Below are positions 5,428 through 32,939 of a DNA stretch of 48,244 nt, one piece after another. The DNA comes from an uncultured Bacteroidales bacterium (GTDB taxonomy: Bacteria; Bacteroidota; Bacteroidia; Bacteroidales; Bacteroidaceae). The position numbers and the translations under genes are program-made. The notes under the pieces are model-generated. The model did no database searches and was not told the DNA's origin. It worked only from the letters and a program-made list of their open reading frames with translations. The stretch lies in assembly GCA_902802265.1 (NCBI GenBank), contig CADCLN010000021.1:1-48244 (forward strand), given 5' to 3'. The first letter of the stretch is position 1; every line of letters begins with the position of its first letter.

Positions 5428-5594
5428 TAGAACGACCACGGATTACACAGATTTGGAAAGGAGTGCCCTAACGGGCAGAAATCTCACAAATCGTTCAAAT
5501 CTTAATTCGTTAAATTCGTCAAATTCGTCAAATTCGTTAAATTCGTAGTTCCCAAAAAATCCGAGTAATCCAAAAAATCTGTGTAATCTGTGGT
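5412..5594. repeat. Inverted-repeat element 1 (9-bp-unit family) with internal 9-bp array
   Basis: The left end ACCACGGATTACACAGATTT (5435-5454) and the right end (5575-5594, reverse complement ACCACAGATTACACAGATTT) match at 19 of 20 positions. Between them lies an array of five 9-bp units of TTCGTTAAA type (5506-5550). Sequence shared with element 2 starts earlier, at 5412, inside the coding region. The element fills almost the whole gap between two convergent genes, so a hairpin-terminator role is possible. Confidence 0.8.
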
Positions 5595-13747: not shown

Positions 13748-13835
13748 GAAGAATCATTTGTGTAATCTGAAAAATCTGAGTAATCTGTGGTGAAGAATCA
13801 TTTGTGTAATCTGAAAAATCTGAGTAATCTGTGGT
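13748..13835. repeat. Perfect 44-bp tandem duplication of 9-bp-family sequence
   Basis: 13748-13791 is repeated exactly at 13792-13835. Inside each copy, GTGTAATCT, GAAAAATCT and GAGTAATCT form a 9-bp series ending in CTGTGGT, the right end of the inverted-repeat family. Only right ends are present. Exact identity suggests a recent duplication. The array lies between argS and porZ and could separate their transcripts. Confidence 0.9.
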
Positions 13836-24416: not shown

Positions 24417-24469
24417 CACAGATTACACGGATTTTTGCTTAAGAACCACAGATTACCCCAATTACCCAA
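24417..24469. repeat. Two same-direction ends of the 9-bp-unit repeat family
   Basis: CCACAGATTACACGGATTTT (from 24417) and ACCACAGATTACCCC (from 24446) are both left ends; no right end is seen nearby, so this is a degenerate or partial copy. It lies upstream of the lipoprotein promoter. Confidence 0.65.
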
Positions 24470-27746: not shown

Positions 27747-27935
27747 ACCACAGATTACACAGATTACACAGATTTTTCAGATTACACAGATTTATCCGTT
27801 TAATCGTTACGCAGGAACTTGTTGTAATAGAAAACATATCGCTTTGCGATGATTAAACGAATTGAACGGATTTAGATATATCAACCCCTGTCTCAAAATA
27901 ATCTGTTGTCCTGAAAAATCTGTGTAATCTGTGGT
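27747..27935. repeat. Inverted-repeat element 3 (9-bp-unit family)
   Basis: The ends, ACCACAGATTACACAGATT (27747-27765) and its exact reverse complement (27917-27935), enclose 151 nt. The left end continues as five 9-bp units (CACAGATTA type, 27749-27793). The interior has no open frame of note. It lies 3' of the SGNH esterase gene. Confidence 0.88.
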
Positions 27936-29412: not shown

Positions 29413-29503
29413 ACCACAGATTGCACAGATTTTTCTGATTGCACAGATTAGAAAGCCTCATAGGACTCAAGAGAAAATCTGTGAAATTTGTGTAATCTGT
29501 GGT
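29413..29503. repeat. Inverted-repeat element 4 (9-bp-unit family)
   Basis: The left end ACCACAGATTGCACAGATTT (29413-29432) and the right end (29484-29503) match at 18 of 20 positions as inverted repeats. A second inner pair (CACAGATTAG and AAAATCTGTG) strengthens a hairpin. It fills the gap between korB and the FKBP gene. Confidence 0.85.
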
Positions 29504-29530: not shown

Positions 29531-30535
29531 TTATTTTACTTCCCAAATATCGTTGGTTTCGAGGAGTTCGGCAAAGTTGTGGTATTTCTTAGCGGCAGAC
29601 ACTTCTTCGATTTGTGCGTTGACGCAGTCGTCGTAGGTAGGTGCATCTACATCGCGGATGACGCCGAGGGCTACGGGGAAGCCATCGCCATTGCCCATGA
29701 GGGAGAGCTTCAGCTGGAGGGTGTTGTCCTGACAGTGGGCATCGTGAACAAGGATGTCCTTTTCGGTGATGCCGTCCTTGCCAATTTCAACGACTTTCAG
29801 TCCGAAGCCTTCCTGCACAAGACCGTATTCACGGTTTTCGCCAAAGATGAGCGGTTTGCCGTGTTCTACGTAGATAGCGTTCTTGGCACGGCCTTCTTTG
29901 CTATAGACAGCATCGTGGGTGCCGTTATTGAAGATGACACAATTCTGGAGGATTTCGCAGACAGCAGCGCCTTTGTGCTGGTAGGCTGCCTTGAGAATCT
30001 CCACCGTGCCAGGTGCATCGGTGGCAACGGCACGAGCAAAGAAGTGGCCGCGTGCTCCGAAGCAGAGTTCAGCGGGACGGAAGGGGTCTTCCACCGTGCC
30101 GTAGGGAGAAGATTTGCTGACGAAACCACGTGGACTGGTGGGGGAATACTGTCCCTTGGTGAGTCCATAGATGCGGTTGTTCAGCAGAATCATGTTGAGG
30201 TTGATGTTACGGCGGTTGGCATGGATGAAGTGGTTACCGCCAATGGCCAATCCGTCACCATCCCCGCTCACCTGCCATACGGCGAGTTTGGGGTTGACGA
30301 CTTTTGCACCGGTGGCGATGGCTGCTGCACGTCCGTGGATAGTGTTCATGCCGTAAGTGGCCATGTAGTGTGGCAGACGGGATGAACAGCCAATGCCTGA
30401 GATAACGGCTGTGTTCCAGGGCTCTACACCGATTTCTGCCATAGCTTTGTGAAGGGAGGCAAGGAAGAAGTGGTCTCCACATCCAGGACACCAACGTGGT
30501 TGTCCTTTCTTATAATCTTGTGCTGTATAACTCAT
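29531..30535 (-). CDS. korB: 2-oxoglutarate (2-oxoacid):ferredoxin oxidoreductase, beta subunit
   Basis: 334 residues. This subunit binds thiamine diphosphate: QPRWCPGCGDHFFLASL at the start, GIGCSSRLPHYM, and the TPP/Mg motif GDGDGLAIGGNHFIHANRRN, followed by NNRIYGLTKGQYSPTS. With KorA it converts a 2-oxoacid, probably 2-oxoglutarate, and CoA to the acyl-CoA and reduced ferredoxin, as in the anaerobic branched TCA pathway. The gene lies downstream of korA, but a 550-bp insert with a GxxExxY gene separates them, an unusual break in this pair. Confidence 0.93.
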   Translation of the reverse strand: MSYTAQDYKKGQPRWCPGCGDHFFLASLHKAMAEIGVEPWNTAVISGIGCSSRLPHYMATYGMNTIHGRAAAIATGAKVVNPKLAVWQVSGDGDGLAIGGNHFIHANRRNINLNMILLNNRIYGLTKGQYSPTSPRGFVSKSSPYGTVEDPFRPAELCFGARGHFFARAVATDAPGTVEILKAAYQHKGAAVCEILQNCVIFNNGTHDAVYSKEGRAKNAIYVEHGKPLIFGENREYGLVQEGFGLKVVEIGKDGITEKDILVHDAHCQDNTLQLKLSLMGNGDGFPVALGVIRDVDAPTYDDCVNAQIEEVSAAKKYHNFAELLETNDIWEVK

Positions 30536-30556
30536 AGTTTTCTATTATTTTACTTT

Positions 30557-30609
30557 AACAACGAATAATGATTTTTTTTAAACAACGGATTTCACGGATT
30601 AGACGGATT
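30557..30609. repeat. Left arm of the ~50-bp inverted repeats flanking the GxxExxY gene
   Basis: This arm starts AACAACGAATAAT and contains AACAACGGATTTCACGGATT (30581-30600). It matches the reverse complement of the right arm (31029-31079) along its whole length with a 2-nt indel in the T-rich centre. The inner part is built of CGGATT-type 9-bp units, related to the other inverted-repeat elements. It begins 22 nt upstream of the korB ATG. Confidence 0.88.
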
Positions 30610-30650
30610 TTCTTTTTTGGGGGGATACTTTGATAGCGGATTATAGGGAT

Positions 30651-31022
30651 TTATCCTATTGGGAAACGTTCTTTTACAAGTGATGCCTCGCCAAAGTTGA
30701 TTAGGAGTGCAAGATTGAAGCCTGCAATTCTGGCATAATTAATAGCTTGTGAACGATGTACGTCATCCAATTCTTTTACAGCCTTCAATTCGACTATAAT
30801 CTTGTCATAGCATATAAAGTCGGGTATAAATGTCCCTTCTAACACGATGCCTTTATAAATTGCATGAAATTCTGTTTCACGCTGAAAAGGTATGTCACGT
30901 TCAGCAAACTCTATTGCCAGAGCCTCTTGGTAAACCTTTTCGGTAAATCCTGGTCCCAGTTCATTGTGAACTTTCATTGCAGCTCCAATGATTTGATAGG
31001 TTTCCTGTTCGTATATTAACAT
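30651..31022 (-). CDS. GxxExxY-family protein with PD-(D/E)XK nuclease residues
   Basis: 123 residues, the usual family length, opening MLIYEQETYQIIGAAMKVHNELGPG. The name-giving motif is G25-F-T-E28-K-V-Y31. Beyond it lie Asp68 (IPDF), Glu78-Leu-Lys80 (VELKAV) and Gln92-x-x-x-Tyr96 (SQAINYA). E-D-ExK-QxxxY in this order is the active-site layout of RecB/Cas4-type PD-(D/E)XK nucleases, so a nuclease is likely; no activity is known to me. It has no signal peptide. It lies between korA and korB inside inverted repeats, on the same strand, and may be read from the korA promoter. Gene plus repeats look like one inserted unit (30557-31079). Confidence 0.9.
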   Translation of the reverse strand: MLIYEQETYQIIGAAMKVHNELGPGFTEKVYQEALAIEFAERDIPFQRETEFHAIYKGIVLEGTFIPDFICYDKIIVELKAVKELDDVHRSQAINYARIAGFNLALLINFGEASLVKERFPIG

Positions 31023-31028
31023 GACCTT

Positions 31029-31079
31029 AATCCGTTTAATCCGTGCAATCCGTTGTTTTTAAAATAATTATTCGTTGTT
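31029..31079. repeat. Right arm of the inverted repeats flanking the GxxExxY gene
   Basis: AATCCGTGCAATCCGTTGTT (31038-31057) is the inverted match (19 of 20) to the left arm; the match extends through ATTATTCGTTGTT. It ends 10 nt past the korA stop codon. No clear target-site duplication is visible at the outer edges. Confidence 0.88.
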
Positions 31080-31088
31080 ATACATTAA

Positions 31089-32939
31089 TTACTTATTTAT
31101 AATCTCTGTGAACGCATCGACCAGTTCGCTGACCACGAAGGGTTGGCCCTTCACTTGGTTGAACTTATACGGTGTGAAGTTGTCAACCTTCATGCGGAGC
31201 CAGCCAGCAAGCTGTCCCATGTTCTGTTCGGCAACCACCACTTTGGGGTATTTACCAAGGACGGCTGCGGTGTTCTTGGGCAGGGGGTTGATGAACTTGA
31301 AGTGAGCAAGGGCTACCTTCTTTCCAGCCTTGCGGAGTTCGTCCATGGCAGCGTGGAGGTGTCCATAAGTTCCACCAAAACCGACGATGAGGAGGTCGGC
31401 ATCGTCTTTGTCGCCCAGCACTTCGAGGTCGGGTACGGGAATCTTGTCAACCTTTTCCTGACGCAAGTGTGTCATCAGGTTATGGTTTTCGGGGTCTGTC
31501 GAGATAGCACCCGTCTTGTTGTCCTTCTCCAATCCGCCGAGGATGTGCTGGAAACCTTCACGACCAGGTACAGCCCAATAGCGTACCCCTGTTTCAGGAT
31601 TGCGGAGGTAAGGTGCCCATGAACCTTTCAATTCCTCAGGAACATAAGGAGGATTAATGGCAGGATAGTCTGCTAGGTTGGGCAATTTGAAGGCTGCTGA
31701 ACCATTGGCCACGTAGGCATCGGTCATCAGGATGACGGGCGTCATGTGTTCCAAAGCCATCTTGCTGGCAGCATACGCCGCATCAAAACAGTCGGTGGGT
31801 GAGGTGGCAGCTATGACGGGCATGGGGCTTTCTCCGTTTCGTCCGAAGAGAGCCTGCAAGAGGTCTGTCTGCTCGGACTTTGTAGGAAGACCTGTTGCCG
31901 GACCACCACGTTGTACGTCGAGTACGACAAGCGGCAACTCCATGATGACTGCCAGATTCATGGCTTCGCTCTTCAGGCAAATGCCTGGACCAGAAGTGGA
32001 AGTGACAGCCAAAGCACCGGCAAAGGAAGCGCCTACAGCAGAAGAGCAGCCAGCAATTTCGTCTTCACACTGCACGGTGGTTACACCCAGCGATTTGTGC
32101 TTGCTCAGTTCGTGCAGCACATCGGTAGCGGGTGTAATAGGATAAGAACCCAAATAAAGTTTCAGTCCGGCTTTTTCTGCAGCAGCAATGAAACCATAGG
32201 CTGTAGCCTTGTTGCCGGTGATGTCCATATAGCGGCCAGGCACTTTGTTCTTGGTTTCAATGCGATAGACGTTGGCAACCGAGCTGTGGGTATTATGTCC
32301 GTAGTCGTAGCCAGCCTGTATCACCTTGATGTTGGCTTCGGCCACGCCTGGTTTCTTGGCAAATTTCTCTTTGAGGAAGTTGAAGGCAATATCGAGATCG
32401 CGGTCGAAGAGCCAGCAGACCAAACCCAGTGCAAACATATTGCGGCACTTGAGCATGGCTTTCACATCCATTCCGCTGTCGACGAGACAATCCTTCACCA
32501 TCTGTGTGATAGGACAAGCAATGACGCGGTCGGGGTCGATACCCATTTCGCCCAGATAATCTTCAGTGGCAAAGGCAGCCTTCTTCAGGTCGGCAGCCTG
32601 GAATGAATCTGTGTCGATGATGATGGCTGCACCTGGCTTGGCATACTTGTACTGTGTCTTGAGTGCAGCAGCATTCATGGCCACCAACACATCACACTTG
32701 TCGCCTGGGGTATAAACCATGTCGGCACCGATGTGTACCTGGAATCCGCTCACACCCGTCAGCGATCCTTGTGGGGCACGGATGTCGGCGGGATAATCGG
32801 GAAATGTACTGATACTGTTACCTACAGTAGCTGAAACTGTAGAAAAAATGTTTCCGGCGAGCTGCATACCGTCGCCAGAGTCACCAGAAAAACGAACTGC
32901 CACTTCGGCCAGTTCTTTTACTTCTAATGTTTCTGCCAT
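31089..32939 (-). CDS. korA: 2-oxoglutarate (2-oxoacid):ferredoxin oxidoreductase, fused gamma-alpha subunit
   Basis: 616 residues from the ATG at 32939 (MAETLEVKELAEV); the longer frame to 32999 would reach back to the promoter. Residues 10-190 form the gamma-type domain (VAVRFSGDSGDGMQLAGN, FPDYPADIRAP, GVSGFQVHIG). The alpha domain follows with GNKATAYGFIAAAEKAGLKLYLGSYPITPATD, CEDEIAGCSSAVGASFAGA and VVLDVQRGGPATGLPTKSEQ. Late in the protein, VGFGGTYGHLHAAMDELRKAGKKVA belongs to the transketolase-C-like part. It works with KorB. A full promoter lies upstream. Confidence 0.94.
   Translation of the reverse strand: MAETLEVKELAEVAVRFSGDSGDGMQLAGNIFSTVSATVGNSISTFPDYPADIRAPQGSLTGVSGFQVHIGADMVYTPGDKCDVLVAMNAAALKTQYKYAKPGAAIIIDTDSFQAADLKKAAFATEDYLGEMGIDPDRVIACPITQMVKDCLVDSGMDVKAMLKCRNMFALGLVCWLFDRDLDIAFNFLKEKFAKKPGVAEANIKVIQAGYDYGHNTHSSVANVYRIETKNKVPGRYMDITGNKATAYGFIAAAEKAGLKLYLGSYPITPATDVLHELSKHKSLGVTTVQCEDEIAGCSSAVGASFAGALAVTSTSGPGICLKSEAMNLAVIMELPLVVLDVQRGGPATGLPTKSEQTDLLQALFGRNGESPMPVIAATSPTDCFDAAYAASKMALEHMTPVILMTDAYVANGSAAFKLPNLADYPAINPPYVPEELKGSWAPYLRNPETGVRYWAVPGREGFQHILGGLEKDNKTGAISTDPENHNLMTHLRQEKVDKIPVPDLEVLGDKDDADLLIVGFGGTYGHLHAAMDELRKAGKKVALAHFKFINPLPKNTAAVLGKYPKVVVAEQNMGQLAGWLRMKVDNFTPYKFNQVKGQPFVVSELVDAFTEIINK

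Follow-up and report, generated by a model that had tools for sequence, protein, structure and literature searches.

A nuclease-like GxxExxY gene inside inverted short-word arrays at the korA-korB junction of a rumen Prevotella-like bacterium: a candidate site-faithful, homing-like module

REP/RAYT sequences are dispersed intergenic palindromes that occur in many copies, and GxxExxY and S23 are, to our knowledge, widespread small protein families of unknown function; we know of no nuclease activity for S23. Nuclease genes that sit in intergenic gaps are found among the free-standing homing genes of T4-like phages (seg and mob, with mobE between nrdA and nrdB). For such phages, passages of one paper describe co-conversion of flanks and cite, by title, the replacement of one intergenic homing gene by another (PMC2988022). 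The 23S rRNA intervening sequence (IVS) with an S23 ORF likewise places a small ORF inside terminal inverted repeats. In Coxiella, according to passages of one report, RNase III excises this IVS, which holds an S23p ORF without known function, has a terminal stem of 28 bp and carries tandem heptamers ahead of S23p (PMC4990558). The locus described here, from a rumen Prevotella-like bacterium, is a tiny nuclease-like gene set in mirrored short-word arrays between two metabolic genes.

The module between korA and korB

The window, by which we mean the whole 48,244-nt stretch that was analysed, contains the inverted arms of about 53 and 51 bp that an earlier note had called near-identical; an inverted-repeat search recovered them as two overlapping pairs, one of 36 nt and 89% complementarity (30574-30609 with 31029-31064) and one of 20 nt and 95% (30556-30575 with 31061-31080). 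The left arm lies 20 nt from the korB start (30535) and the right arm 8 nt from the korA stop (31089). Family matches and coordinates agree with the note's account of a 123-residue GxxExxY gene between the arms that splits korA from korB (Table 1), and this gene is the sole family-matched gene there. Each arm holds three 7-nt units (ACGGATT / AATCCGT) at a pitch of 9 nt, separated by 2-nt spacers. The module thus occupies the intergenic korA/korB gap, not 23S rRNA, and Rfam gave no match in the window at the gathering threshold.

Table 1. Coordinates of the module, its neighbours and the gene-less arrays in the window
Feature	Coordinates	Strand	Basis or detail
Gene-less inverted array pair	5437..5592		word search
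Single-sided arrays, direct duplication (~44-nt stretch)	13764..13833		word search
Single-sided array	24417..24463		word search
Gene-less inverted array pair, CACAGATT/AATCTGTG unit	27749..27933		word search
Gene-less palindromic array of related unit (CACAGATT ... AATCTGTG), between korB and FKBP gene	29415..29501		word search
korB, 2-oxoacid:acceptor oxidoreductase beta subunit, host gene, downstream neighbour	29531..30535	-	family matches
Left arm (korB side)	30556..30609	+	ACGGATT at 30585-30591, 30594-30600 and 30603-30609; outer AACAACGAATAAT stretch
GxxExxY gene, 123 aa, PD-(D/E)XK (PDDEXK_3) nuclease-like	30651..31022	-	family profiles, conserved residues, model
Right arm (korA side)	31029..31080	+	AATCCGT at 31029-31035, 31038-31044 and 31047-31053; outer stretch with ATTATTCGTTGTTA end
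korA, 2-oxoacid:acceptor oxidoreductase alpha subunit, host gene, upstream neighbour	31089..32939	-	TIGR03710, E 1.8e-195

The gene is a member of the GxxExxY family by the curated cut-offs of both TIGR04256 (E 3.4e-41, 140.2 bits against a cut-off of 35) and PF13366, PDDEXK_3 (E 2.1e-39, 135 bits against 22). Residues E28, D68, E78-x-K80 and Q92-x-x-x-Y96, which had been read from the sequence as a PD-(D/E)XK layout, proved to be 99-100% conserved among 127 aligned relatives (E28 in 99%; Y31, D68, E78, K80, Q92 and Y96 in 100%). In the AF2 model of the protein (pLDDT 96), the closest fold in the PDB by Foldseek is 4ic1 (SSO0001, E 3.2e-4), which we take to be a Cas4; LHK-Exo (E 3e-3) and RecE and MGME1 (E near 0.03) follow, and the homing endonuclease I-Bth0305I ranks 22nd (E 0.053). 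This ranking fits a RecB/Cas4-type reading, as the earlier note had it, and conserved residues and model-based fold together place the protein among PD-(D/E)XK enzymes with a predicted Cas4/RecB-like fold. A sequence search of the PDB with the protein found no match; searched with the family profile, the PDB returned only T7 endonuclease I, weakly (E 0.039), which hints at branched-DNA substrates and to which we attach no evidential weight. The PADLOC defence HMMs gave no family at E 0.01, and a known anti-phage defence system was set aside on that ground.

The genus search covered 45 genomes, and the korA-korB junction was readable in 39 of these congeners. It is uninterrupted in 27, with a spacer of 16-18 nt (e.g., AAGAAAGGACATTCACT), and filled in 12, by ten GxxExxY modules, one S23/four-helix module and one hairpin insert. 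The window unit is an inserted module, as the earlier note had proposed, splitting a korA-korB pair that is otherwise adjacent. At the ends of the filled junctions compared, the 16-18-nt spacer with its AGAAAGGA-like stretch is missing, and by eye no target duplication was seen there. The note's further idea of a transposon-like insertion with target duplication did not hold up, since the spacer is replaced and gene modules mostly keep one site (56 of 61 pairs, below). What the kor junction displays is presence or absence at a fixed site, the pattern of free-standing homing endonuclease genes. The S23/four-helix gene at the junction of G037 (L055, a TIGR02436 match) has its own matched heptamer arms. 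In G019 (L068) the junction is filled by 159 nt that include a GC-rich inverted repeat (CCCCCAAAGGGGG); GxxExxY is not matched there.

A tree built on korA+korB for 95 records (67 carrying the gene, 26 empty and 2 other) needs 8 changes between filled and empty, only 2 of them forced by well-supported branches; frequencies cannot be read from it, since the gene itself was the route by which 57 of its records, all named, were found (7 of these repeat genus genomes). In congener G014, KorB is 98% identical to that of the window, but the GxxExxY protein (L038) only 62%. On the korA side of the kor junction, at a distance of 2-2.5 kb, a second GxxExxY gene is found in G010, G012, G015, G031 and G041 (loci such as L113, L114, L141, L119 and L078:642-1074), with CGATAATT or ACAATAATT arms; these second genes form their own clade with genes of G001, G008 and G020.

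Site fidelity and probable exchange between species

In a tree of 154 GxxExxY proteins, all kor-junction records but L071 form one group (66 of 67, or 59 of 60 distinct loci), and the kor label changes 2 times against 50 in shuffles, on a tree of few columns with many forks unresolved. Among distinct pairs of loci with gene identity of at least 80% (n = 61, with duplicate records removed and 3 further pairs set aside for short flanks), both flanks are homologous in 56, one in 2 and none in 3; for pairs away from kor at the same identity, both are homologous in 19 of 24. The duplicates, seven named records, were removed from this count and from the 1691 pairs below, and are still within both trees, the unit-type counts, the counts of 80 relatives and the comparison of gene and kor identities that singled out pairs such as L044/L047 and L200/L240. 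Copies at many unrelated sites, the mark of an insertion sequence or MITE, are not what the gene modules show (56 of 61 pairs share the site), and cut-and-paste transposition of the gene module is disfavoured by this fidelity, in tree labels and in pairs.

Genes that are 99-100% identical occur in species whose flanks are about 80-91% identical. In L044 and L047 (from G027 and G043), the genes are 100% identical and korA/korB 91% (third positions 0.78). Near-identity sets in some 50 nt before the end of korA, with one mismatch there, and continues through the module; in korB, 60 codons are without difference and identity stays at least 96% to about codon 120, then drops. The tract has a break in the outer right arm, where the two loci differ over a patch with identical stretches on either side. 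The same tract alters the end of KorA (TAYFNELLEK, against VEAFNEIINK in the empty relative L042) and the start of KorB (MSFTVQDYKK, against MAYTAQDFKK in L042). In L235 and L238 the gene is 98.9% identical, compared with 88%, and five distinct pairs combine gene identity of at least 97% with a flank below 93%.

Over the 1691 pairs of the 60 distinct kor loci, the gene reaches at least 97% in 3 and four equal-length korA/korB comparison windows in 0; the gene falls at least 20 points below the kor average in 132 pairs, the korA/korB windows in none. Only these two criteria (97% and -0.20) were used; an identity excess of +0.06 was rejected as a criterion, as a conserved korB window passes it in more pairs (358) than the gene does (11). 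L200 and L240 have kor genes 91.6% identical and GxxExxY genes 63% identical. The module of the window is itself 82-83% identical in DNA to those of L199 and L200, with kor genes only 73-75% identical. We infer from such mosaics transfer into the same site with co-converted flanks, as is the habit of homing endonuclease genes; by this evidence the modules appear to pass between species into one fixed site, in a homing-like manner.

Arms, unit words and gene-less arrays

Matched inverted arms were found at a score of at least 36 around 57 of 97 GxxExxY genes of the genus, and at a score of at least 26 around 68 (98 distinct genes were examined, 97 with both flanks, which is fewer than the genus matches). 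Mismatched upstream/downstream pairs of these genes reach 36 in 60 of 1940 cases, with a 99th percentile of 63 and a maximum of 118 that arises because related loci share units. Control ORFs reach 36 in 6 of 115 cases (maximum 45); three of the six are GxxExxY genes missed by the filter, two adjoin the arms of GxxExxY genes and the sixth falls in neither class. The arms of the window score 71 and are beyond chance. The 29 of 97 genes that score below 26 are without convincing arms; at 36 or above, 24 of the 97 match in direct orientation as well, and both arms of L235 are palindromic in their own right, over about 75 nt each. Of 80 GxxExxY genes in named relatives (7 records repeat genus genomes), 56 have their own arms, with a mismatched control that is high (232 of 1600) because most of the 80 share one unit type. 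The expectation that other GxxExxY genes would be flanked by inverted repeats was thus borne out for many such genes in the genus and in named relatives. The idea that the arms are one conserved repeat of the AACAACGGATT type had to be dropped: units vary from gene to gene (CGATAATT, CATGAATT, CACAGAAA, ACAATAATT, AAAAACAGAT and others) and agree between the arms of a locus.

Across the phylum, GxxExxY was matched in 152 of 296 Bacteroidota genomes, and arms are weaker (a score of 36 or above is reached by 11 of 30 genes and 30 of 870 mismatched pairs, one of 26 or above by 22 and 111 respectively), with units such as CACAGAG, CGCAAAG and CACGGAG. Of 34 stretches with a pattern match in a viral collection, 3 encoded a relative, one with arms (L349, score 52) and two without; phage as the main vehicle was rejected on these counts. 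L349 (IMGVR_UViG_3300013936_000198, classed as viral) carries a GxxExxY gene with CGGAATTAA arms at 9-nt pitch.

The units behave as candidate recognition words. With the pattern AC-N-[AG]-ATT imposed, which made 26 of 80 kor-type loci usable, the two variable unit bases agree across arms at 0.875, against 0.635 in shuffles (maximum 0.764 of 500), and the spacer bases at 0.365 against 0.401 shuffled. Without an imposed pattern, mismatches between kor-type arms recur at lag 9, 1.66-fold; self-identity of arms peaks at lag 9 for the kor type (0.55) and more broadly at lags 9-11 (0.35-0.42) for all GxxExxY genes of the genus. If arms were kept alike by lengthwise copying or pairing, the spacers should agree too; they do not, and copying of whole arms from one to the other is disfavoured. 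Sense-strand G-U pairing is preserved by arm changes about as often as it is broken (GxxExxY 76 versus 67; S23 22 versus 24). As G-U-compatible changes are in no clear excess, nothing here points to an RNA stem, and maintenance of the arms as such a stem is unsupported by this test. Units could be typed by their two variable bases (GG, GA or AG) in 55 of 67 records. Type changes 6 times along the GxxExxY tree and 14 times along the kor tree, both quick trees, against about 22 in shuffles, and the unit word appears, by this measure, to travel with the GxxExxY protein.

For S23 genes of the genus, matched arms reach 36 in 53 of 71 genes, against 36 of 1050 mismatched pairs (the 71 examined are fewer than the genus matches). 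Their units are mostly heptamers (e.g., AATTGAT, TTGACAG, AAATGAT), and self-identity of arms, in the first 29 genes, peaks at lags 7, 14 and 21 (0.60, 0.54, 0.45). Both flanks are homologous in 29 of 34 S23 pairs, one in 1 and none in 4. In 15 pairs chosen because their genes were alike, flanks were compared: L180 and L181 have genes 99.0% identical and flanks 77-91% identical in adjoining 75-nt bins (nearest bins 80% and 77%), and L194/L335 and L344/L345 likewise have alike genes and diverged flanks. S23 was matched in 114 of 148 Bacteroidota genomes, with weaker arms in the phylum (5 of 30 at 36 or above against 4 of 870; 12 of 30 at 26 or above against 24 of 870). Since S23 modules share both the anatomy and the site-faithful transfer, a nuclease may not be needed.

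In the window the word is matched 26 times at up to 3 mismatches, against 1.3 expected, in six clusters that lie in gaps between the main genes of the ORF list and in two single three-mismatch matches (1146 and 7673) within long ORFs. In the whole genome it is matched 239 times at up to 1 mismatch, against 0 for the reversed pattern; most of these matches cannot belong to the six GxxExxY genes of the genome, so the arms are part of a dispersed word family. The gap between korB and the FKBP gene, which holds one gene-less array (Table 1), measures 145 nt in the window genome (G000) and 16 nt, without the array, in G014, the only other examined locus with FKBP adjoining korB. In the genus, matches per genome range from 0 to 239 for AATCYGT and from 0 to 122 for AATTCGT, arms of gene modules included. 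Their summed count correlates with the number of GxxExxY genes (Spearman 0.70; 0.585 after genome size), with the number of S23 genes (0.53) and with genome size (0.51), figures whose p values are rough because the genomes are related and so not independent. The median count is 114.5 in the 10 genomes with a kor GxxExxY module versus 15 in the 27 kor-empty ones, and 8 in the 10 genomes without GxxExxY versus 30 in the other 35. The AATCYGT/AATTCGT ratio splits as expected, 2.5-7.7 with GG/AG-type kor modules (3) and 0.08-1.1 with the GA type (6), where G010, G012 and G016 were typed by eye, being untyped by rule, and the tenth module, that of G025, is built on a different unit. Upstream of the GxxExxY gene of L001 (contig C30 of G000) are tandem repeats of about 100 bp, each holding inverted AATCCGT-type units plus a CGCTCCGCG hairpin.

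Interpretation and comparison with known systems

We propose that the window carries a self-recognising, site-faithful mobile module driven by a homing-like GxxExxY nuclease, one of a large class, and judge from the sequences compared that this has an even chance of being right. On the class plan, one gene of about 120 codons is bracketed by inverted short-word arrays and would spread horizontally. The GxxExxY protein would bind its own 7-nt units, which here number three per arm and are spaced one per 9 nt, slightly less than one helical turn. Being a predicted nuclease of the Cas4/RecB-like kind, it would cut or process DNA at or near the site. Repair would then use a filled allele as the template and write its module into an allele that is empty or holds another insert, much as free-standing homing endonuclease genes are copied, and the gene-less dispersed arrays would be by-products or parasites of the recognition. 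That the nuclease drives the module by acting on the repeats, as the earlier note had suggested, is thus a supposition drawn from these patterns, and ordinary homologous recombination plus selection could be what moves it. A wider reading, to which we hold only tentatively and with some doubt, is of a Bacteroidota-wide class of homing modules in which a small protein reads its own iterated arms (GxxExxY with arrays at 9- to 11-nt pitch, the S23 four-helix protein with mostly 7-nt arrays), spreads from species to species into a single fixed intergenic location and gives rise to, or maintains, gene-less arrays that can number in the hundreds; the 23S rRNA IVS would be S23 members that came to lie in rRNA.

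The arms themselves might be the motor: inverted arrays would supply homology or hairpins for host recombination, which would swap any small gene, and the protein would bind the arms for autoregulation or protection. Unrelated GxxExxY and S23 proteins with the same anatomy and same-site transfer speak for this, and the 99.0% gene identity of L180/L181 between flanks of 77-91% makes unaided ordinary recombination seem unlikely. However, with spacers unmatched between arms no long perfect arm homology is maintained, and the adjoining bins of L180/L181 are themselves only 80% and 77% alike; we consider the explanation rather unlikely. Improbable, in our estimate, is an element of the IVS kind, in which arms pair in RNA, RNase III cuts, the operon stays expressed and spread is incidental. 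The Coxiella IVS, with its S23p ORF, 28-bp stem, tandem heptamers and RNase III excision as given in passages of one paper (PMC4990558), is its precedent, and it is common for the gene to be read in the same direction as both its neighbours (GxxExxY 66 of 86, S23 64 of 70, as raw counts). Yet G-U-keeping and G-U-breaking changes are nearly balanced, showing no sign of RNA pairing, three 7-nt units per arm are not demanded by pairing alone, and the kor module lies outside rRNA.

A domesticated gene under selection, for defence or repair for example, could be swapped as a mosaic allele with the arms as its operators; strict conservation of the active site is in keeping with this, and unit type fits the protein tree as operator co-evolution would have it. 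But the gene is patchy in relatives, with 8 changes of state at the kor site on the best tree, PADLOC has no match, and up to 239 word matches per genome exceed what operators of a few genes need, which makes this quite improbable. A conventional transposon with terminal repeats, its miniature derivatives being the dispersed arrays, would account for inverted ends, one gene, many gene-less copies and the korB-FKBP array present in G000 and absent in G014. The replaced spacer without visible target duplication at the kor site, modules that mostly stay at one site and units that vary from gene to gene leave it hardly credible; this reading is already disfavoured for the gene module only, not for the gene-less arrays.

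Should the homing-like reading be true, the GxxExxY and S23 families gain a role as proteins of self-recognising, site-faithful mobile modules, an abundant kind of intergenic repeat is explained, homing gains a chromosomal, intergenic form, and the 23S rRNA IVS is placed in a wider family. As each module carries several copies of its presumed recognition word, specificity becomes readable and testable directly. We found no earlier description of such modules in the open-licence literature searched, and within it the class is apparently undescribed.

The comparison with known systems can be made point by point. MITE-type palindromes such as BrickBuilt of P. gingivalis, like those of REP/RAYT, share with the window arrays an intergenic position, palindromic form and several to many copies; the window word is a 7-nt unit at 9-nt pitch and BrickBuilt, in the part of its description considered here, a 23-nt unit with IS-like ends (PMC4596501). 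Cas4/RecB-family PD-(D/E)XK nucleases offer the closest PDB fold, and the window protein has only 123 aa. The Coxiella heptamers, as described in passages of PMC4990558, are akin to the mostly 7-nt units of S23 modules in the genus, and going by that one paper the Coxiella 23S IVS looks like an S23 module in rRNA; five exact 23S words (a crude test) matched none of our collected loci. Unlike the IVS, the kor module is intergenic, encodes a nuclease-like protein and has units at 9-nt pitch. In its fixed address, patchy presence, flanking tracts and predicted nuclease fold the module resembles a free-standing homing gene, a likeness short of a claim to membership among homing endonucleases. The T4 enzymes are GIY-YIG or HNH and phage-borne, whereas PDDEXK_3 proteins in bacterial chromosomes are involved here; the passages on T4-like phages (PMC2988022) mention no iterated inverted arms, and here there are arms plus dispersed arrays. 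What sets the window module apart from free-standing homing genes is therefore its iterated, self-matching arms, its dispersed arrays and a plan shared with the unrelated S23.
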